A stretch of 13,322 nt of DNA, from the NCBI GenBank assembly GCA_028290085.1, contig JAQGKN010000220.1:1-13322 (forward strand). Reading direction: 5' to 3'. Shown here piece by piece: positions 3,544 through 13,322 of the stretch; within the stretch, counting starts at the first letter, position 1, and the number at the start of each line of letters is the position of its first letter. The notes beneath the pieces were generated by a model, which was not told the DNA's origin, did not search any database, and saw nothing but the letters and a program-made list of their open reading frames with translations. Source of the stretch: Hyphomicrobiales bacterium. GTDB taxonomy: Bacteria > Pseudomonadota > Alphaproteobacteria > Rhizobiales > Beijerinckiaceae. The position numbers were made by a program, and so were the translations under genes.

Positions 3544-4311
3544 TCACCCCATGATGTGGTAGCCGCCATCGACGTGGATGGTCTCGCCCGTAATGGCGCG
3601 GGCTGCCGGACTGGCGAGAAAGGCCGCTGTTGCACCGACATTCTCGATGGTCGCCAGCCGTTTCATAGGGGCGCGCTCGCGGGCCTGTTCGAGCATCGCG
3701 TCGAAAGACGCGATGCCTCCAGCAGCTCGCGTCGCGATGGTGCCCGGCGACAATACGTTGACTGTGATGCCGTTGGGGCCCAGCTCGGAGGCGAGCTCAC
3801 GCGCCGCGGCCTCCAGCGCAGCCTTCACGGGCCCCATCATGTTGTAGGTCGAGATCACCTTCTCGGCTCCGTAGAAGCTGACGGTCATGCACGCGCCACC
3901 CTCCGCCATCAGCGGTTCTGCTGAGCGGCAGAGACGTGCGAATGAATGCACGGATACGTCCATCGCCACGCCGAAGCCTTCCGCCGTCGTGTCGATCACC
4001 CGTCCCTGCAAATCGCCGCGCGGCGCGAACGCGATGCAATGGACCAGGATATCGAGCTTCCCCCATGTCTTGCCTATCTGGTCGAACAGCGCCTGCTGCT
4101 GTTCAGGCTGCGCGACATCCAGCGGCATGAAAATCGCCGTGCCCACGCGCTCTGCCAAGGGACGCACGAAAGGCTCGGCCTTGGCGTTGAGGAAGGTCAA
4201 GGCGAGTTCCGCGCCTGCCTCCCGCAACGCCATCGCGATGCCCCAAGCTATGGAATGCTCGTTGGCGACTCCAACGACGAGCGCTTTGCACCCCTGCAGA
4301 CTGTTGCTCAT
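3544..4311 (-). CDS. fabI: FabI-like enoyl-[acyl-carrier-protein] reductase (SDR family), divergent paralogue type
   Basis: 255 residues from ATG 4311, with AGAGG upstream on the minus strand. A TTG at 4335 would overlap the upstream stop but lacks a comparable site. The protein has the FabI form of the Rossmann dinucleotide motif, G-V-A-N-E-H-S-I-A-W-G-I-A (residues 14-26). The FabI catalytic spacing is Y156-x6-K163, in S-T-Y-N-M-M-G-P-V-K, and V-D-G-G-Y lies near the C-terminus. FabI reduces the enoyl double bond with NAD(P)H in fatty-acid elongation. Two departures from E. coli FabI stand out: the second active-site tyrosine (Tyr146) is Phe146 here, in S-F-Y-G-A-E-K, and the glycine of H-S-I-G-F (Gly93) is alanine here, in H-C-I-A-F. 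It lies 20 bp after the DUF3141 gene, so it is probably the second gene of that operon. A dedicated enoyl-thioester reductase for that operon is more likely than the housekeeping FabI. Family is sure; substrate is not. Confidence 0.88.
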   Translation of the reverse strand: MSNSLQGCKALVVGVANEHSIAWGIAMALREAGAELALTFLNAKAEPFVRPLAERVGTAIFMPLDVAQPEQQQALFDQIGKTWGKLDILVHCIAFAPRGDLQGRVIDTTAEGFGVAMDVSVHSFARLCRSAEPLMAEGGACMTVSFYGAEKVISTYNMMGPVKAALEAAARELASELGPNGITVNVLSPGTIATRAAGGIASFDAMLEQARERAPMKRLATIENVGATAAFLASPAARAITGETIHVDGGYHIMG

Positions 4312-4331
4312 TGTCTTGCCTCTCTGGCCAA

Positions 4332-6539
4332 TCAAGCGCGCGCTGAGCGGTGTACAACATGGGCCGCAGAAGGGTCGAACAGGTGAGAGACCTCTTCGAA
4401 TCGCTTTGCTTCAGCGTCGGTCCGATTGCGGCTCTCGAACAACGCGCGCACGATCGCCAATCCGCGACGCCGTTCGCTTGCGTCGTCGGGGAGCAGTTCG
4501 GGTAAAGTCTCCAGCGCCTGTCTCCGGTCCAGCCTCAGTGTGAGGAACTGCTTGCGCATCGACTCCTTAAAACGGTCTGTGCCGACTTTGAGGTTTGGCG
4601 GCAGGACGGCGCTGATGCGTTTCAGAGTGGAATAGGACCTCTCGTCGGCACTGCCGTTGCCGCCGCCCGCGATGTAGAGAACGCTGCGCAAGATGGCATC
4701 AGTGAGGTCGCCATGGTCCATGTCCGCCCGGAGAGTCTTGCGCAACTCGCGCGCCGACATGCGCCGCGTGACATCGCGCACGACATGCGTCGTCGCGGCA
4801 TTGTCCTCTGCCCGCATACCGACGAGTGCCTGAAGCACGGGCGACGAATAAGTCGACTGGAAGACCTGCTCGGTCAATCGGTCGCGCAATTGCCCCCACA
4901 ATTGAAGCGAATGCGCCATCTGGCTCGCCATGATTTCTTCCCACTGCCGCAGCGGGTTTTCACTCCCGACGGGGCGGCGATGGGCGCGCACGTTTTTCGC
5001 AGCCCAGGAAATGATCGGCGCCGCCGGGTTTCGATCAGAGATGGCCGAGAAGCGCAGACGATGCGGATGGATGCTGCGCAGCCATTGAGCGCTCGCCTCC
5101 GTCGTCATCCGCCGCACGAGTGGGGAGGCGAAGGTCTTGTAGAGCCCTTTGTTGATCTCTGACACGCGCGCCACAGTGGCAAAGTCAGCCTCGTCTTCCG
5201 GGCTGTTGGTCCCAAACGCCCTTATGTCGTCCAGCGTGCGCGGCTCAAGGGCAAGCAGGTATTTCCCTTCTATGAGATCGGCGCGCGCAGTCTCCGGGCC
5301 AGCGTCCGAGATCACGGCTTCGTAAAGCCCTGGCGGCAGCAGGTCGATCATGTCGATGCAGGATGCAAATTCGGCGTGTTCTTTGGTGGCCACCTTGCCT
5401 GATACGAAGATTCCGAGATGCCCGATGGTTTCGTGCACAGTGTAGACGACGGTCTGCCCCGTCTGAATCAAGTCATCGACATCCTGATAGACATCGAGCA
5501 GCCATCCCAGAGCCTGTTGCGGCGGCGTGATGTCGTCGCCCCATGAGCAGAAGATGAGAATTGGGGAGGTGATGTTACGCAGGTCGACACGCTCGCCGGA
5601 CGTCGTGGTAATCGCGCCCGTCCCGAGCTTGTTACCGACGAAGAGATTATCGGCGATCCATTGCATCTCGCCCGCGTCGAGCAAGACTGGCGAGCCCCAC
5701 CACGTCTCGAAGTCGAGAAATCGCTGCGGCTCAGTGTCGATCTTGGAATAGACGTTGTAAGCCTTTTCAAGAAAGGTGTTGTCGGGGTGCAGACGTTCGA
5801 AATTAGCGACGAGATGCGCTCCATCGAAAATGCCGTGCCCAAGATCACCTGCAAGCGACGTCATCCACGTGCCACCAAGAAGGCCGCCAAGATAGCGCAT
5901 CGGGTTTTTCCCGTGAACGCCGGCCCAGTAAGACAGCGGCGATCCCGCGAGAATGATCGGGCCTGACAGATCGGGCGAGATAGCTGCCGTCAGCATGATC
6001 TGCCATCCGGCCTGGCAATTGCCGATCAGGCATGGTTTACCCGCCGCATCAGGCTCGATCTCGATCACGTGTTGAATGAAACGTGCCTCTGCGACGCAGA
6101 CATCTTCGATGGTTTGTCCATGCACGGGCTCTGGTAGAAATCCGACAAAATAGCAGGGATGACCGGCGCGCATTGCGACACCAATCTCGCTATCCTGTTT
6201 CATGCCACCAATCCCAGGTCCATGACCCGCGCGTGGATCGAAGACGATGAACGGTCGCTTATTGTGGTCGATCTTCACGCCCTCTGGCGGACGGATCCGC
6301 GCAAGCAGATAATTGACAGGCCGCTCGAACTCGCGCCCATCGAGCACCAGATCTGCCCCGAAACTCAGGACATGAGGCGCAATCTTTTCGGCCTGTTCAA
6401 GATAGGTGTTGCCCCGCTGACGGAGCGTGTCGAGCATGAGAATGGACCTTTGCCAGGTATCCACCCAGTATGCGCAGGCGATCAGCGCAGGATTGGTGGT
6501 CCCGTGGCGAGGGGCCGATAGTGCATCCGCGTCACTCAT
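4332..6539 (-). CDS. DUF3141 protein, PHA-synthase-like alpha/beta hydrolase (735 aa)
   Basis: Start chosen at ATG 6539 because GGAAGGG lies 6 bases upstream on the minus strand; a TTG two codons earlier is the only close alternative. I recognise the DUF3141 family, often labelled 3-hydroxyalkanoate synthetase-like. Residues about 20-60 form a helical lead with Y-W-V-D-T-W-Q-R-S, as in PHA synthases. D-P-R-A-G-H-G-P-G-I-G-G (101-112) and G-H-P-C-Y-F-V-G-F-L-P-E-P (126-138) are family hallmarks. The nucleophile elbow is G-N-C-Q-A-G with Cys175, the G-x-C-x-G lipase-like box of polyhydroxyalkanoate synthases. D335/D336 in C-S-W-G-D-D-I-T-P-P and H374 in T-I-G-H-L-G-I-F-V-S-G complete a plausible Cys-Asp-His triad. 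The C-terminal third (about 450-735) is a helical extension absent from PhaC. It heads a two-gene operon with the FabI-like reductase. The FNR/FixK-like site at 6624-6637 lies about 90 bp upstream. True polymerase activity is unproven; acyltransferase or hydrolase activity on hydroxyacyl thioesters is equally possible. Confidence 0.88.
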   Translation of the reverse strand: MSDADALSAPRHGTTNPALIACAYWVDTWQRSILMLDTLRQRGNTYLEQAEKIAPHVLSFGADLVLDGREFERPVNYLLARIRPPEGVKIDHNKRPFIVFDPRAGHGPGIGGMKQDSEIGVAMRAGHPCYFVGFLPEPVHGQTIEDVCVAEARFIQHVIEIEPDAAGKPCLIGNCQAGWQIMLTAAISPDLSGPIILAGSPLSYWAGVHGKNPMRYLGGLLGGTWMTSLAGDLGHGIFDGAHLVANFERLHPDNTFLEKAYNVYSKIDTEPQRFLDFETWWGSPVLLDAGEMQWIADNLFVGNKLGTGAITTTSGERVDLRNITSPILIFCSWGDDITPPQQALGWLLDVYQDVDDLIQTGQTVVYTVHETIGHLGIFVSGKVATKEHAEFASCIDMIDLLPPGLYEAVISDAGPETARADLIEGKYLLALEPRTLDDIRAFGTNSPEDEADFATVARVSEINKGLYKTFASPLVRRMTTEASAQWLRSIHPHRLRFSAISDRNPAAPIISWAAKNVRAHRRPVGSENPLRQWEEIMASQMAHSLQLWGQLRDRLTEQVFQSTYSSPVLQALVGMRAEDNAATTHVVRDVTRRMSARELRKTLRADMDHGDLTDAILRSVLYIAGGGNGSADERSYSTLKRISAVLPPNLKVGTDRFKESMRKQFLTLRLDRRQALETLPELLPDDASERRRGLAIVRALFESRNRTDAEAKRFEEVSHLFDPSAAHVVHRSARA

Positions 6540-6623
6540 GTGCAACCCTTCCGCAACGGAACTCGCGATGCCAGATGAATAAGATCGGTAGGCGAAAGCT
6601 TATTGGCCATGGTCCAACGGGCA

Positions 6624-6637
6624 TTGACGCAGCGCAA
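6624..6637. promoter_or_regulatory. FNR/FixK-like operator between DUF3141 and zeta-inhibitor genes
   Basis: TTGAC-GCAG-CGCAA fits the CRP/FNR-family pattern TTGAY-N4-RTCAA with two mismatches in the right half-site; TTGCG-type halves are known in alphaproteobacterial FixK/FNR sites. Its centre (6630.5) is 91 bp from ATG 6539 and 90 bp from ATG 6721, almost exactly midway. A class II activator sits at about -41.5. That would place a minus-strand start near 6589, with TAAGCT (6602-6597) as a weak -10, and a plus-strand start near 6672, with TATAGA (6663-6668) as a possible -10. The site at 7515-7528 shares the same CAGCGCAA half. A 13-bp palindrome, GTCAT-GGA-ATGAC (6639-6651), lies just beside it. 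Recognition is by pattern and position only. Confidence 0.6.
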
Positions 6638-6720: not shown

Positions 6721-7044
6721 ATGCCGCTTTTCGGCGACCGTGAGAAAGCTTACGAGGACGTATTCGCGCATGGCGAAGAGACGCGTTTCCGTGCGCTCGC
6801 CCGGCGCAATCGGGCGTTAGGACGTTGGGCGGCCGAACAACTCGAGCTCAGCGGTGATGCCGCCAGCGCTTACGTGGACAAGATCAGTAACAGTACGATC
6901 GTGACCTCCGCCGATGAAGCGCTGTTGGAAATTATCTACGCGGACTTTCAGGCTGCGCACGCTGCTGGGTCCAAGGAGCAGATCCGTCGAAAGATGTCCG
7001 AGTTGATGGCTCTTGCGATCACTCAGGCCAAGTCTACGACGTGA
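6721..7044 (+). CDS. F1-ATPase inhibitor subunit zeta (DUF1476 family)
   Basis: 107 residues from ATG 6721, with GGGAG upstream. The N-terminus reads F-G-D-R-E-K-A-Y-E-D-V-F-A, then E-E-T-R-F-R-A-L-A-R-R-N-R-A-L-G-R-W-A-A. This is the hallmark of the alphaproteobacterial zeta subunit described in Paracoccus denitrificans. In that family the N-terminal segment inserts into F1 and blocks ATP hydrolysis while leaving synthesis possible, and the rest forms a four-helix bundle. The length (about 105) is normal. The C-terminal part (residues 55-105) has the usual acidic then basic helices, with E-Q-I-R-R-K-M-S-E-L. It converges on an ATP synthase epsilon gene, leaving 17 bp between the two stop codons, and is divergent from the DUF3141 operon across the FNR/FixK-like site. 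Many relatives keep one zeta gene away from the atp operon, so this could be the only copy or an extra, conditionally expressed one. Confidence 0.9.
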   Translation: MPLFGDREKAYEDVFAHGEETRFRALARRNRALGRWAAEQLELSGDAASAYVDKISNSTIVTSADEALLEIIYADFQAAHAAGSKEQIRRKMSELMALAITQAKSTT

Positions 7045-7061
7045 ACGAATAACGTGCCGCG

Positions 7062-7463
7062 CTAGATCGTCAGCGTCTCCCTCACCAGCAGAAGACGGTG
7101 GCGGGCAGCTTCAGCTTCGTGCCGTGATGTTTCGCTTCCAGCTGTCTCAATAATGAGATCCATGCTCGCGATTTCCCGGTCGAGGGTGTCGCGTGAAATA
7201 TCGTCGGGAGATAACGTGCGCTCCGCCAACACCGTGACGGTGCGGCCGGTGATTTCCGCGAACCCGCCCCAGACGAACGCGCGACGCTTTCGGTCTTGAA
7301 CATCTGTCAGAACGATCATTCCTACCTGGAGCACCGTCACCAGAGGTTCATGGCCAGACATGATCGTCATCTCGCCTTCACTGCCGGGAAGCACGATTGA
7401 TTTCATCTCCCCGGTCAGGACGACACGTTCCGGCGAAATCAGCTCAAAATCGATAACGGCCAT
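7062..7463 (-). CDS. atpC: F-type ATP synthase subunit epsilon, solitary gene
   Basis: 133 residues from ATG 7463, with GGAGTG upstream on the minus strand; a GTG at 7484 is a weaker alternative. Residues 1-85 match the epsilon beta-sandwich: F-E-L-I-S-P-E-R-V-V-L-T-G-E, then V-L-P-G-S-E-G-E-M-T-I-M-S-G-H-E-P-L-V-T, then W-G-G-F-A-E-I-T-G-R-T-V-T-V-L-A-E. Residues about 90-133 form the C-terminal helical hairpin. Epsilon links the gamma stalk to the c-ring and, through its C-terminal helices, can restrain ATP hydrolysis. In most bacteria atpC is the last gene of atpHAGDC, but here no other ATP synthase structural gene is adjacent. The neighbour is instead the zeta inhibitor. The upstream FNR/FixK-like site (centre 7521.5) is 58 bp from this start codon. 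It may be a second, conditionally expressed epsilon, or the main copy displaced from its operon. Confidence 0.92.
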   Translation of the reverse strand: MAVIDFELISPERVVLTGEMKSIVLPGSEGEMTIMSGHEPLVTVLQVGMIVLTDVQDRKRRAFVWGGFAEITGRTVTVLAERTLSPDDISRDTLDREIASMDLIIETAGSETSRHEAEAARHRLLLVRETLTI

Positions 7464-7514
7464 TTGCGCCACTCCAATTCGCACTCATGGTGTGACTGGG
7501 CTGCAGAGTTGTAT

Positions 7515-7528
7515 TTGATACAGCGCAA
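7515..7528. promoter_or_regulatory. FNR/FixK-like operator between atpC and the hypothetical-ppk2 operon
   Basis: TTGAT-ACAG-CGCAA has a perfect left half-site for the FNR/FixK consensus TTGAT-N4-ATCAA and a CGCAA right half. It lies in the 165-bp divergent gap. For the rightward operon the centre at 7521.5 predicts a class II start near 7563. TATTTT (7550-7555), matching four of six bases of a sigma-70 -10 box, is in the correct place for this. For atpC the predicted start would be near 7480, 17 bp before the ATG; I see no good -10 there. The sequence shares TTGA-N3-AGCGCAA with the site at 6624-6637, which supports both as real. Confidence 0.65.
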
Positions 7529-7628: not shown

Positions 7629-8138
7629 ATGTCCCTCACGTCCGCACCGAAAGACGAAAAGCACGAAGCGCTCGGTGACGAAGCGTTCATGAGCGCTGAC
7701 GAGTTGCGCGCCTACATGCGCCAGATGGCAATGGCGGAGGCCGCCGGCGGCGACGATGCCGTGGCACGCGCGGAACGCGCGCAGAAAGACATGCTCGAAA
7801 CATTCTCGAAGCCGATCGAGGTCACAGACGAAGTGATCGCCAAGCTGAAGAAAAGGCTTGTTTCGTCGACGCGACAGGCAGCCAAGCGCGGCGAGACCGA
7901 GATCATGGTCATGCGGTTTCCCAACGCGCTGTGCACGGACAATGGCCGCGCGATCAACAATTCAGAAGACGGCTGGCCTGACACACTGACCGGCCGGCCT
8001 CGACAAGCCTATGAGTTCTGGCGCGATGAACTTCGACCCGCAAAGTACAAGCTTAAGGCGATGATAATCGACTGGCCGCATGGCATGCCCGGCGATGTCG
8101 GATTCTTCCTGAGCTGGGCAAGCGCAACCGAGCATTAG
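7629..8138 (+). CDS. Conserved hypothetical protein upstream of ppk2 (169 aa)
   Basis: Starts at ATG 7629 with AGGAG six bases upstream; a TTG two codons earlier is less likely. I cannot assign a named domain. Residues 1-80 are rich in Glu, Asp, Lys and Ala and look helical and soluble, with M-S-A-D-E-L-R-A-Y-M-R-Q-M near residues 21-33. Residues 92-163 look like a compact folded domain: I-M-V-M-R-F-P-N-A-L-C-T-D-N-G-R-A-I-N-N, D-G-W-P-D-T-L-T-G-R-P, Y-E-F-W-R-D-E-L-R-P, then I-I-D-W-P-H-G-M-P-G-D-V-G-F-F-L-S-W. The high content of Trp, Pro and Gly in that block suggests strong conservation of a binding surface. There is no signal peptide or membrane segment. The ppk2 start is 23 bp downstream, so the two genes are almost certainly one operon, and the FNR/FixK-like site with a TATTTT -10 candidate lies in front. 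A role with polyphosphate or low-oxygen physiology is inferred from context only. Confidence 0.85.
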   Translation: MSLTSAPKDEKHEALGDEAFMSADELRAYMRQMAMAEAAGGDDAVARAERAQKDMLETFSKPIEVTDEVIAKLKKRLVSSTRQAAKRGETEIMVMRFPNALCTDNGRAINNSEDGWPDTLTGRPRQAYEFWRDELRPAKYKLKAMIIDWPHGMPGDVGFFLSWASATEH

Positions 8139-8161: not shown

Positions 8162-8953
8162 ATGGACGCTGTCATCAAAAAGCCTCTCAAACGTAAGGCC
8201 TACGACCGCGAACTGAAAAAGCTTCACGCCGAAATGGTGAAGCTGCAGCTTTGGGTGCAGCATACCGGTGCCAAGGTGTGCATAGTGTTTGAAGGGCGTG
8301 ACGGGGCCGGCAAGGGAGGTGTCATCAAGGCGCTTGTCGACCGCGTCAGCCCGCGCATCTTCAGGGTGATCGCCCTGCCCCCGCCGACCGAGCGCGAGAA
8401 ATCGCAGATGTTCGTGCAGCGCTAACTCCCACATCTCCCGGCAGCTGGCGAGATCGTGATCTTCGACCGTAGCTGGTACAATCGTGCCGGCATCGAGCGT
8501 GTCATGGGCTATTGCACGGACGAACAGCTGAAGGGCTTTCTGGCGACCGCTCCTGGTGTCGAAAAAGCCATTGTCGGATCGGGTGTGATCCTCCTCAAAT
8601 ACTGGCTGGAGGTTAGCCCGGACGAACAGACGCGCCGGATGGAGCAGCGGATTTCCGACCCGCGAAAAATCTGGAAGCTCTCGCCGATGGACCTCAAGTC
8701 TTACAGCCGCTGGTACGATTATTCGCGAGCGCGCGACGACATGTTCATGGCTTCGGACACGGCGTGGGCGCCATGGTACGTCGCGAATTCGGACGACAAG
8801 AAACGAGCGCGACTGAACATACTCACGCACATACTCTTCAACATCCCATACGAGGCCCCGCACCGCGACAAGGTCAAGTTGCCAAAGCGGCAGAAGGCCG
8901 AGGGTTATATCGAGCCCGATTACGCCTATCGGCGCGTACCGGATGTCCACTGA
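8162..8953 (+). pseudogene. ppk2: Polyphosphate kinase 2 (class I type) interrupted by one in-frame TAA
   Basis: ATG 8162 follows AGGAGGG at good spacing. Read through one stop, the frame gives 263 codons before the final TGA, close to a full single-domain PPK2. Walker A is G-R-D-G-A-G-K-G-G (residues 45-53, Lys51). Walker B is I-V-I-F-D-R-S-W-Y-N-R (98-108, Asp102). The lid-like basic segment includes Q-R-I-S-D-P-R-K-I-W-K-L-S-P. PPK2 moves phosphate between polyphosphate and nucleoside diphosphates. At codon 88 (8423-8425) there is TAA where the family has Tyr in Q-R-Y, and the reading frame continues without any shift into L-P-H-L-P-A-A-G-E. A single TAC or TAT to TAA change explains it. 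Everything downstream remains well conserved, so the lesion is recent, a sequencing error, or read through. Two separate products are possible, using GTG 8456 for the second, but these would split Walker A from Walker B. Confidence 0.88.
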
Positions 8954-9156: not shown

Positions 9157-10284
9157 ATGGCTACAGCTGTCGATCGTTTCATCGCCCCCATCTTTTGCGC
9201 CTGTCTCGTCGTGCAACTTGCGGGGTCCGCCTGGTCACAACCAGCGGCCCCCCCCCCTATTCCGGTTGCTACGGCGCCGGTCGAGTCGCACGCCATCTCG
9301 AAAACGTCGACCTTCGTGGGCCGGGTCGAGGCGATCGGGCGGGTCGAAATCCGCGCACGCGTCAAGGGTTTTGTAGATGCTGTTCTCTTCACGGAGGGCA
9401 TGCTCGTCCACGAGGAAGATCCCCTGTACCGCATCGAAAAAGGGTTGTTCGAAGCCGATGTGCAGCAGGCACAGGGTGCGCTCGACCGCAGTATCGCGAC
9501 CCATCAACTCGCAGAGCTGCAGCTCGACCGCGCAGAGGAACTCCTCAGCAAAAAGGCCGGAACGGCGGTCGACCGCGACAAGGCACGCGCTGAGGAACAA
9601 CGGGCCAAGGCGACGATCCTCAGCGATCAGGGCAATCTGCAGACTGCCAAAATCAATTTGGGTTATACGGCGATCACCGCCCCGATCACCGGCCGCATCG
9701 GACGTACATCTGTAACCAAAGGCAACGTGGTCGGTCCGGACTCGGGTCCGCTGGCGATCATCGTGAGCCAGGACCCGATGTATGTGACCTTTCCGGTGAG
9801 CCAACGCGAATTCCTGCGTCGTGGAGATACGGCGCAGAAGGTCGATCTCAAAAGCATCAAGGTGCAGATCCAGTTTTCGGACGGCAGCACGTATGATCAG
9901 ACCGGGCAAATCGACTTCCTCGACGTGAGCGTGGACCGCACGACGGATACGGTGATCGCGCGTGCCAGAATGCCAAATCCTGCGGGCAACCTCACAGACG
10001 GACAGTTGGTCCGCGTGCTTCTCGAAAGCGGAACACCTGACAATAAGCTCGTGGTGCGCCAATCCGCGTTGATCGCCGACCAGGGTGGCACTTATGTCTT
10101 CGTGGTTCAGGACGGAAAAGCCGTCGTGAAGCGCGTCAAGCTGGGTGCGGAAGCAGGTTCCGACATCGTTGTCGAGGACGGGCTCGCGGCGGGCGATCAG
10201 GTGATCGTGGAGGGCCTGCAGACAGTGCGCGCCGGCTCACCCGTTCGTGCGAGACCTGCGCCCAAAGAGCTTGGGGGAGCCTAG
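9157..10284 (+). CDS. RND efflux periplasmic adaptor (membrane fusion protein)
   Basis: 375 residues from ATG 9157, with GGAAAG upstream. A signal peptide covers about residues 1-27, with likely cleavage near A-G-S-A-W-S; no lipobox cysteine is placed as in AcrA, so the protein may be unlipidated. Domains in order: a half lipoyl motif (I-R-A-R-V-K-G-F-V, 65-73), an alpha-helical hairpin (about 95-160), the second lipoyl half (A-P-I-T-G-R-I-G, 175-182), then beta-barrel and membrane-proximal domains. The hairpin has an RLS-like TolC-docking pattern: R125, L129 and T136 in R-A-E-E-L-L-S-K-K-A-G-T, with Thr replacing the usual Ser. It bridges the inner-membrane pump to an outer-membrane channel. 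The pump gene begins 3 bases after its stop, so the two are translationally close. No regulator (TetR or LysR type) or outer-membrane factor gene is in the window. Ten consecutive C bases fall at codons 31-34. Confidence 0.93.
   Translation: MATAVDRFIAPIFCACLVVQLAGSAWSQPAAPPPIPVATAPVESHAISKTSTFVGRVEAIGRVEIRARVKGFVDAVLFTEGMLVHEEDPLYRIEKGLFEADVQQAQGALDRSIATHQLAELQLDRAEELLSKKAGTAVDRDKARAEEQRAKATILSDQGNLQTAKINLGYTAITAPITGRIGRTSVTKGNVVGPDSGPLAIIVSQDPMYVTFPVSQREFLRRGDTAQKVDLKSIKVQIQFSDGSTYDQTGQIDFLDVSVDRTTDTVIARARMPNPAGNLTDGQLVRVLLESGTPDNKLVVRQSALIADQGGTYVFVVQDGKAVVKRVKLGAEAGSDIVVEDGLAAGDQVIVEGLQTVRAGSPVRARPAPKELGGA
9248..9257 (+). repeat. C10 homopolymer tract inside the adaptor gene
   Basis: Ten C bases in a row encode the A-P-P-P stretch just after the predicted signal peptide. 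A gain or loss of one C would shift the frame and abolish the adaptor. It is the longest single-base run I noticed in the window. Confidence 0.9.
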
Positions 10285-10287
10285 GCA

Positions 10288-13200
10288 ATGCTGTCATGGG
10301 TTTTTATCGACCGGCCCCGCCTCGCCATCGTCATTGCCATCGTCACGACCATCGCGGGCCTCGTTGCCTTGCTGTCGATCCCGGTTGCGCAATATCCGGA
10401 TATCGTTCCACCGCAGGTTTCGGTAACGACGTCTTATCCCGGCGCATCGGGCGCCGTTGTAGATGCGACGGTTGCCCAGCCCATCGAAGCGCAGGTCGTG
10501 GGCGTCGACAAGATGATCTACATGAAGAGCGTCAGCGGCGACGATGGCAGCTACTCGCTCATCGCGTCGTTTGAACTCGGCACCGATCCCGACATCAATG
10601 CGGTCAACGTGAATAATCGCGTGCAGGTCGCTGTGTCGAAGCTTCCGCAAGAGGTGCAGCGGCAGGGTATCACGGTCAAGAAGAAGTCGTCGGCGCTGCT
10701 TGGCGTGATCGCCTTCTACTCGCCCAAGAACACACTCGATCCGCTGTACCTGTCCAATTACGTCACCATCAACATTCTCGATCAAGTGCGCAGCACGCCC
10801 GGCGTCGGCGACGCCAGTCTGTGGGGGCCGCAGGATTACGCCATGCGGGCGTGGATCGACACCGATCGGCTGACCGGGCTCGGGCTGACGACAGGCGATC
10901 TCATCTCCGCAATCCAGTCGCAGAATGTGCAGGCCGCCGTGGGCCGTATCGGTGCGCGCCCTATCTCGGACGACCAGACATTGCAGCTCAACATCCAGAC
11001 GCAAGGACGCCTGACTTCCGTGGACGAATTCGCGCAGATTGTTATTCGCAGCAATCCGGACGGATCGGTGCTGCGTCTGGGCGATGTCGCGCGTCTGGAA
11101 CTCGGGGCCACCAGCCTCGACCGCGAGACCCGTTTGAACGGCGGTGCGGCGTCGGTGATGGCGATCTATCAATCCCCGGGCGCCAATGCGATCACGACGC
11201 TGGATGCCGTACGCAAGCGCATTGAGGAATTGTCGAAACGGTTCCCCGACGATCTCGCCTGGAAGACGACTTACGATCCGACAACCTTTGTGCGCGAGAC
11301 AATCCATGAGGTGCAGAAAACGCTGATCGAGGCGTTCATTCTCGTCGTTCTGGTCGTCTTCATTTTCCTCGGCAGCCTGCGTGCGACGCTTATCCCGACC
11401 CTCGCCGTTCCCGTGAGCCTGATCGGCACGTTCGTGGCGTTGAAGGCATTCGGCTATTCCGCGAATTCCGTGTCGCTGCTGGCCATTGTGCTGGCCATCG
11501 GCATTGTCGTGGACGACGCTATCGTGGTCGTCGAGAACGTCGAGCGCGTCATGGCGGAGGAGCCAGATCTCAGTCCGGCAGATGCCGCCAAGAAGGCCAT
11601 GAAAGAGATCACTGCGCCGATCATCGCGATTACGCTCGTGCTGTTATCTGTGTTTGTTCCGGTCGCGTTTATCCCGGGAATTTCAGGTGAATTGTTCCGC
11701 CAGTTCGCGGTCACGGTCACGGTCGCAGTTGCGATGCTGTTGTCCGCCGTCAATGCACTGACGTTGTCGCCTGCCCTTTGCGGTGTGCTGTTGCGTCCGC
11801 ACCATGGGCCGCAGCGCGGCGTCATGGGGATGATCATGCGCGCGATCGACCGGGTGCGCGACGCATACGGAGTTGCCGCGGCGCGTCTGGTGCGCATCTC
11901 GATCATTGGGCTTGTCCTCTGCGGCGCCGCGTTTGTCGGCATCGGCGCTCTGATGAAGATGACTCCGACGGGGTTTTTGCCCGAGGACGATCAAGGTGCT
12001 TTCTTCATCGTCGTACAATCGCCGGATGGGTCTTCCGTCGCGCGAACCGCCGAAATCGTGCGACGCGCGGAAGACGTGTTGCGGCAAGACGAAGCCGTGG
12101 CTGATTTTACCTCGGTGATCGGCCTCAACTTCATCGACAATTATTCGCAATCGAACGCCGCCTTTTTTGTTGTGACTCTGAAATCCTTCGAAGAGCGCAA
12201 GGACAAATCACTCAGCGCGGCGGCCACCATGGCGCGGCTGGCGCCCAAGTTCGCGCAAATCGAGGGAGGCCGGATCGTGCCTCTGGCGCCACCTCCGATC
12301 ATTGGTCTCGGCACAGGCGGCGGCTTCAGCTATGTGCTGCAGGATCTGCGCGGCGGCGACTCCAAGGCGCTTGCGCAGGTGTTGCGCGGCTTAACCATTG
12401 CTGCCAACGAAGACCCGCAATTGAGAGGCGTGTTCAGTACATTCTCTGCCACGAATCCATCGCTGTTTCTCGACATCGACCGGCAGAAGGTCGAAGTTCT
12501 CGGCGTTTCCATGAACAGCGTGTTTCAGGCTTTGCAAGCTTCACTCGGCGGCTACTACGTCAACGATGTGAATCTGTTTGGACGCACGTGGCAGGTGCAA
12601 GTGCAGGCCGAGGCCAAGGACAGGTCAGGCATCGACGACATCTACCGCATCAACGTGCGCAACAATGAGGGCAAGATGGTGCCCTTGCGCAGCGTGCTCG
12701 AGGTGCGCGTCGTCGTCGGCCCCCCTGCCCTGATTCGCTACAACAATCTGCGCGCCATCACCGTGCAAGGCGCACCCGCGCCAGGCGTTTCATCGGGACA
12801 GGCCCTGAAAGCGATGGAGGCGGTCGCCGCAAAGACACTGCCTGCTGCCTATGCCGGCGAATGGACCGACACCGCGTTTCAGGAAAAACGTGCCGAGGGC
12901 AAGACCGCGATGATTTTGGGCCTCGCTGTGCTCTTTGCCTTCCTGTTCCTGGTCGCGCTTTACGAGAGCTGGACGATCCCGGTCCCGGTTCTGCTGTCCG
13001 TGTCCATCGGCGTATTCGGCGCGCTGGGCGCGCTTTATCTCGGTCATCTGACGCTCGATCTCTACGCACAGATCGGCATGATCGTGCTTATCGGCCTGGC
13101 GGCGAAGAACGGCATTCTGATTGTCGAATTCGCCAAGGAGCAGCGTGAAAAAGGCGTCCCACTGCACGAGGCTGCGGCGGAGGGAGCGCGTCTGCGGTTC

Positions 13201-13322
13201 CGCCCGGTCATGATGACGTCGCTTGCTTTCATCCTCGGGCTGTATCCGCTTGTCGTTGCGGAAGGTGCCTCGCAACTGGCGCGTCGCGATGTCGGAACTC
13301 CGGTCTTCGGCGGTATGATCCT
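10288..13322 (+). CDS. RND multidrug efflux pump, HAE1 (AcrB/MexB) family, truncated by window end
   Basis: Starts at ATG 10288, 3 bases after the adaptor stop, with GGGGGAG about ten bases upstream inside that gene. It stays open for 1011 codons to the right edge; the family is about 1030-1060 residues, so only the last few dozen are missing. The first transmembrane segment follows [13 protein letters not shown] and Y-P-G-A-S-G are typical of HAE1 pumps. The proton-relay residues are intact: D409 and D410 in [16 protein letters not shown] (TM4) and K940 in [11 protein letters not shown] (TM10), corresponding to AcrB D407, D408 and K940. [13 protein letters not shown] lies near the end. It exports drugs, solvents or other amphiphiles from periplasm or inner leaflet, driven by protons. 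A metal-exporting (CusA-type) role is not supported. Substrate is unknown. Confidence 0.95.

Follow-up and report, generated by a model that had tools for sequence, protein, structure and literature searches.

Known brakes against ATP burning when respiration fails include conformations of the F1 subunit ε, the inhibitor subunit ζ and AtpΘ. Ordinary ε is encoded by atpC (TIGR01216, PF02823), and the N-type ATPase, whose own ε (TIGR03166) is a second atpC-like gene in a genome, comes as a whole second operon. The ζ subunit of Paracoccus denitrificans (PF07345, DUF1476; PDB 2ll0, 5dn6) inhibits hydrolysis and the wild-type ε does not (PMC9317440, in its available part), and the Sinorhizobium ζ, with changes among its first 14 residues, is reported to be non-inhibitory (PMC10469736, likewise in part), an example of an inactive member of the family. 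Cyanobacterial AtpΘ is a conditionally expressed small anti-hydrolysis protein of F1Fo (PMC9241938, excerpt). The FixK2 regulon of Bradyrhizobium diazoefficiens, with the box consensus TTGA/C-N6-T/GCAA, counts acetate kinase, phaC2, a universal stress protein and an RND adaptor among its targets (PMC9104804, excerpt).

Here we describe a pair of genes for a ζ and an ε subunit found in a 13,322-nucleotide stretch of Hyphomicrobiales DNA (the window). We label these second-type subunits ζ2 and ε2, and the ordinary ε encoded beside β is called ε1. ζ2 resembles the Paracoccus protein in family, N-terminal positions, four-helix pattern and best PDB fold match, and differs from ordinary ζ in forming its own clade, in lying beside ε2 and in lacking G64, which every one of the 32 ordinary ζ has, and V68, which 31 of them have. 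ε2 shares family, fold and length with ordinary ε, but forms its own clade, carries distinct residues such as R123 and lies without atpD in 23 stretches. The pair would parallel AtpΘ in its predicted conditional expression; unlike AtpΘ, it duplicates a structural rotor subunit together with an inhibitor, and no family relation is claimed. As with the N-type ATPase, a second atpC-like gene is involved; an N-ATPase remnant was ruled out, as the window ε2 had no TIGR03166 match at E 1e-3 and a related genome (G024) has a single γ gene, and the Microvirga ε2 of G1037 scored 29 against a cut-off of 100. The setting recalls the FixK2 regulon in box form and in the kinds of target, but the boxes described here are predicted, and the main text of PMC9104804 contains neither 'ATP synthase' nor 'ATPase'. 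Judged by title and abstract, no paper among the open-licence literature matches listed describes a second ε with ζ, the available parts of PMC9317440 and PMC10469736 mention no duplicated ε or ζ, and the main text of PMC4999443 contains no atpC, ATP synthase, ackA, fabI, Microvirga or Methylobacterium.

A convergent ζ2–ε2 pair and its gene cluster

The ζ2 gene (6721–7044, + strand) encodes 107 aa and matched PF07345 with 95.7 bits against a cut-off of 25 (E 2.5e-27); its product falls in one clade with the ζ of 13 other pairs, and its model resembles Paracoccus ζ 2ll0. The ε2 gene (7062–7463, − strand; 133 aa) was identified by PF02823 (E 1.5e-23, 83 bits versus 27, scanned on a longer ORF starting at 7484), by TIGR01216 (86.4 bits versus a cut-off of 67.25) and by its AlphaFold model, with a fold match to 1aqt, and each finer NCBIfam ε model listed for it fell short of its own cut-off. 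The two genes are convergent, with stops 17 bp apart, and a Pfam scan of ten window ORFs found no F1 subunit other than ε, so that the initial annotation's description of a solitary convergent ζ and ε without alpha, beta or gamma is confirmed.

To the left of the pair, on the − strand, lie genes for a FabI-type enoyl-ACP reductase (3544–4335; NF005717, 387 bits versus a cut-off of 337) and a DUF3141 protein (4332–6545; PF11339, E 2.9e-263), the latter with weak similarity to PHA synthases (TIGR01836, 24 bits, far below the cut-off). To the right, on the + strand, follow orf7632 (7632–8138), a conserved cluster partner with no Pfam or NCBIfam match, and a polyphosphate kinase 2 (PPK2) gene (8162–8953) with PF03976 in both halves. 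Further right, window positions 9157–13322 hold an HlyD-type gene and then an RND-permease-like stretch. The PPK2 gene has an in-frame stop at 8423–8425 in this assembly, either an assembly error or a true nonsense change; the copy in a related genome, G025, is intact. At the same place G025 carries an HlyD gene 80% identical to that of the window, preceded by a FixK-type box (L047:7331), and a relative of this gene was seen at four other ε2 loci.

We read 23 ε2 loci, comprising 20 stretches in addition to the window, G024 and G025, each 10 to 20 kb long and some ending at contig ends. None of the 23 contained the β motif (atpD). Near these loci we found fabI in 18 cases, ackA in 17, an orf7632 homologue in 17, DUF3141 in 16, ζ2 in 14 and PPK2 in 7, most loci lying in a pta-ackA-DUF3141-fabI cluster, a setting that looks to be of the fermentation or low-oxygen type. 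ε2 and ζ2 are thus mostly linked: all 14 ζ2 genes converge with ε2, their spacing ranging from an overlap of the ends in G024 to some 470 bp. At the other nine loci (G1121, G1054, G982, G1070a, G1110, G994, G1006b, G987 and G1087) ζ2 was not in the stretch read, which means that ζ2 is either not obligatory or located elsewhere; in G1070 and G1006 it is present at their other ε2 locus. Three Microvirga loci (L164:10866-11192, L170:8497-8823 and L172:11161-11487) encode a further ζ-like protein that is shorter by about 16 residues at the N-terminus and extended at the C-terminus. Missing the inhibitory segment, this protein is a possible antagonist of ζ.

Carriers of the pair and of the ordinary subunits

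The window's own genome (G000) is a MAG, 69.6% complete and in 682 contigs. The initial annotation had asked whether it holds another ζ gene, and a second, ordinary ζ does lie on contig C36. Searches of this 70%-complete MAG found neither γ nor a further ε, and for this reason the assembly seems to lack the main atp operon; relatives are therefore needed to judge whether the pair is additional.

Within the window's genus, three of 51 genomes carry the special ε (G000, G024 and G025; 220–236 bits with profile A1), other matches to this profile reaching at most 125 bits and five genomes having none. Each of the three has two ζ genes. G024 has one γ gene, in an operon α (cut by a contig end)-γ-β-ε1 on contig C111, its ε2–ζ2 pair on C13 and a second, ordinary ζ besides ζ2, which settles within the genus that the pair is additional to the ordinary genes. 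G025 (JAQGKD010000035.1, a Hyphomicrobiales MAG) shows the same gene order as the window, with ε 70% and ζ 60% identical; a search for γ in this draft assembly found none. As G024 is a draft assembly too, binning error was a concern until Microvirga-type carriers were found. Two other genomes of the genus (G015 and G033) have two ordinary-type ε matches each and no ζ match.

In a sample of 397 genomes of the family, special ε of at least 190 bits were present in G000, G024 and 15 genomes of the genus labelled g438, out of 44 listed for that genus. All 15 also have an ordinary ε; two more g438 genomes, G1129 and G1137, had two ε matches each, and six genomes of the sample gave no match. Nine of the 15 correspond to Microvirga lotononidis, thermotolerans, alba, subterranea, zambiensis, calopogonii, flocculans, puerhi and sp. 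TS319, and we term the remainder Microvirga-type by their shared genus label. Seven genomes of a further genus, g28 (probably Methylobacterium, given M. nodulans among the named relatives), had two ε matches, the better one scoring 148–159 bits in five; the loci of G987 and G1087 were read. Altogether, the ε2 that we read come from 20 genomes, three in the window's genus, 15 of Microvirga type and two in another genus; 18 of these also have an ε beside β. Outside the window's genus, ε1 lay downstream of β on the same strand in 17 of 17 genomes, and three Microvirga-type genomes (G1153, G1070 and G1006) have two ε2-clade copies each. The initial claim of an extra ε therefore stands for relatives, namely G024 and the 15 Microvirga-type genomes, in which ε1 adjoins β and ε2 lies at another place. 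That carriers have no other ζ is ruled out by the second ζ, and that they have no other ε is ruled out for relatives by the co-occurrence of ε1 and ε2.

In a sample of 397 genomes of the order, each of the 29 top-scoring other ε matches has β next to it, and in the class sample (385 genomes) the highest score of any other ε match was 123 bits. No g438 genome is listed in either sample, and both therefore say little about that genus. Two ζ matches were found in 16 of the 385 class genomes, G000 included, and none of the best 29 class ζ loci besides the window has an ε within 1.5 kb flanks. A scan of genome contigs brought up nothing beyond the record of G025, a Mesorhizobium operon of canonical form and one distant MAG. 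Among plasmid records, 24 match ε, two match ζ and none match both, and a plasmid-borne pair was rejected on this count. One of the plasmids, p3 of Rhizobium sp. NLR16a (L080), carries an F1 set in the order atpH-A-G-D, small unknown ORF, ε; another, a Sinorhizobium numidicum plasmid typed as conjugative (L081), carries a ζ (DUF1476), with no listed ε in the stretch shown.

Paralogue clades, kept motifs and co-divergence

ε2 and operon ε form two paralogue clades. A single branch of the maximum-likelihood tree (support 99/95) parts the 23 ε2 from the 28 operon ε, and the split needs one change in 98% of 200 bootstrap trees; the ζ tree likewise separates 14 ζ2 from 32 ordinary ζ (100/100). Because both trees are unrooted, a position on one side of a branch is no proof of a single duplication. 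The ε tree took 10 further operon ε selected from a first tree, whose rows P0007–P0028 are probably the operon ε of the family, and not all of them; its row for the G1087 operon ε has an overlong start and has lost the C-terminal end. In the ζ tree, neither group includes the three ζ-like rows that lack the N-terminal segment, and G960 had a short ζ-like match that was dropped because it had no full frame. Between ε2 and ε1 of the same genome, identity was 36–56% in the 14 genomes compared.

The distances within the two second-type families also run in parallel. Over 14 pairs the ε2 and ζ2 distance matrices correlated at r=0.91, with 0 of 5000 permutations as high, and within ten Microvirga pairs (one ε2 locus each for G1153 and G1070) r was 0.95, or 0.91 with ε1 distances removed (0 of 5000). 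Linked inheritance contributes to this co-divergence and can alone produce it.

The predicted fold of ε2 is intact. Its AlphaFold model shows a β-sandwich and two C-terminal helices, with a pLDDT of 91 in the best of five models (the other four were poor, with means of 42–65), and the best fold match was E. coli ε, 1aqt (TM 0.80). Residues were compared over 20 core ε2 sequences, without G1006b, G987 and G1087, with all 23 given beside. R123 is present in 23 of 23 ε2, where 26 of 28 operon ε have Q. At position 39, which in E. coli lies in the loop touching the c-ring, 17 of 23 ε2 have E and all 28 operon ε have A or S. The C-terminal domain of ε2 has on average 8.4 Lys/Arg against 3.7 in 17 ε1 of the same genomes, an excess that is smaller against ten ε of other genomes (8.4 versus 6.1).

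As for ζ2, positions F4, R7, E8, F11, E12 and F15 are common to at least 80% of the 14 ζ2 and of the 32 ordinary ζ. The window ζ2 has Y at conserved position 11. Its F4 and H17 agree with Paracoccus ζ and differ from the Sinorhizobium chain 7vkv, in which these two positions are M and L. Its model reached a pLDDT of 74 (54–59 over the N-terminal 20 residues), with Paracoccus ζ as the best match. Judged by its residues, ζ2 appears to carry an inhibitory-type N-terminal segment that keeps most of the conserved positions, which speaks for inhibition.

Candidate control and possible roles

A search with the pattern TTG[AC]-N6-[TG]CAA found three boxes in the window, compared with an average of 0.89 over 100 first-order Markov sequences. 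The two short intergenic regions hold two of these boxes, a placement whose chance we estimate at about 1e-4. The FixK2-type box TTGACGCAGCGCAA (6624–6637) lies between the DUF3141 gene (−) and ζ2 (+), and the box TTGATACAGCGCAA (7515–7528) lies in the gap that separates ε2 (−) from orf7632 (+), with its centre 58 bp upstream of the ε2 start; the FNR/FixK-like site that had been proposed upstream of each gene is therefore present in both cases. Because both regions are divergent, the boxes may serve DUF3141 and orf7632-PPK2 too, or instead. G025 has boxes in the same two intergenic regions (L047:4193 and L047:5171), and G024 has one, before its gene run from pta to ε2. Among Microvirga loci, a box lies no more than 300 bp from the ζ2 gene in four of 11 cases; for ε2, no box within 300 bp was found beyond G000 and G025. 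Six pta upstream stretches (400 bp, or to the stretch end, from the tblastn match start) yielded one box, 279 bp away, and the search for a FixK box general to Microvirga was negative. Seven of the 11 Microvirga ζ2 promoters share, by eye, a TATAAT-like GTGTATAATG/GTGTATGATG element, which could be an ordinary −10. The suggestion of FNR-type control thus gains from the boxes at the same places in G025 and loses from their absence at most Microvirga loci; on the pattern matches, low-oxygen control through the candidate boxes is plausible for the window and hypothetical in general.

We put the chances at about even that ε2 and ζ2 form a pair of linked isoforms serving the ordinary F1Fo, refitting the enzyme towards less hydrolysis when respiration is limited. 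We infer that the pair would be induced at low oxygen and incorporated into F1Fo, and that the refit would most likely go in the direction of curbing ATP hydrolysis. ε2 and ζ2 would then belong to an energy cluster for limited respiration, together with phosphotransacetylase/acetate kinase, DUF3141, FabI, a CoA transferase and, in some cases, polyphosphate kinase. With the cluster switched on, ε2 would replace ε1 on the γ/c-ring rotor and ζ2 would bind the F1 head through its inhibitory N-terminus; the refitted enzyme would hydrolyse less ATP, and ATP from acetate kinase and polyphosphate would be saved. ζ2 would be the brake and ε2 the matching rotor part. More tentatively, and a little short of an even chance, a co-inherited ε2–ζ2 cassette may swap the rotor subunit so that F1Fo passes to and from a low-hydrolysis form by expression and not by conformation alone. 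The initial annotation had both proteins limiting hydrolysis: for ζ2 this agrees with the kept N-terminal positions, but ε2 as a brake cannot be assumed, because wild-type P. denitrificans ε does not inhibit.

The opposite direction, in which ε2 and a weaker ζ2 displacing ζ1 would ease ATP-driven proton pumping in fermenting cells, is unlikely in our estimate. It must nevertheless be taken seriously, because cells that ferment depend on a membrane potential and the ε C-terminal domain of Bacillus subtilis promotes pumping, its deletion lowering ATPase and H+ pumping (PMC6692558, excerpt). Added ε slightly activates F1 in Paracoccus (PMC9317440, available part). Substrate-level ATP production is encoded in the cluster, and the three Microvirga loci with a truncated ζ-like protein would also fit; the conserved N-terminal positions kept in ζ2 itself point the other way.

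We give a similarly low chance to ε2 being an assembly or stability isoform that holds F1 to Fo at low energy, at low pH or in another membrane state, with ζ2 redundant. The kept ε fold and the many residues common to ε2 and ε1 are in line with such a role, and the difference at position 39, presumably in the c-ring loop, would mean that rotor contacts may be retuned, but convergent ζ2 genes at 14 loci and the co-divergence suggest a joint regulatory role. A free ε2 that acts outside F1, sensing ATP or titrating ζ or another partner, is improbable: its fold matches ε solved within F1 and F1Fo complexes, even if the ε2 gene lies without other F1 genes and the motif I(L)DXXRA lets certain bacterial ε bind ATP (PMC9317440, available part). 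A reading in which the pair does little and is carried along by a mobile or stress cluster is very improbable despite its patchy occurrence (three of 51 genomes of the genus, 15 of 44 listed g438 genomes), as the ε2 reading frames are open at all 23 loci and clade-specific residues such as R123 are kept.

The observation is far wider than one window, and the mechanism proposed in the initial annotation, a curb on ATP loss when respiration falls, is plausible and partly supported. The carriers include named species, among them Microvirga lotononidis and M. thermotolerans, so that the question is directly testable. If the reading as a linked isoform pair is true, the subunit make-up of the ATP synthase itself would change with conditions.
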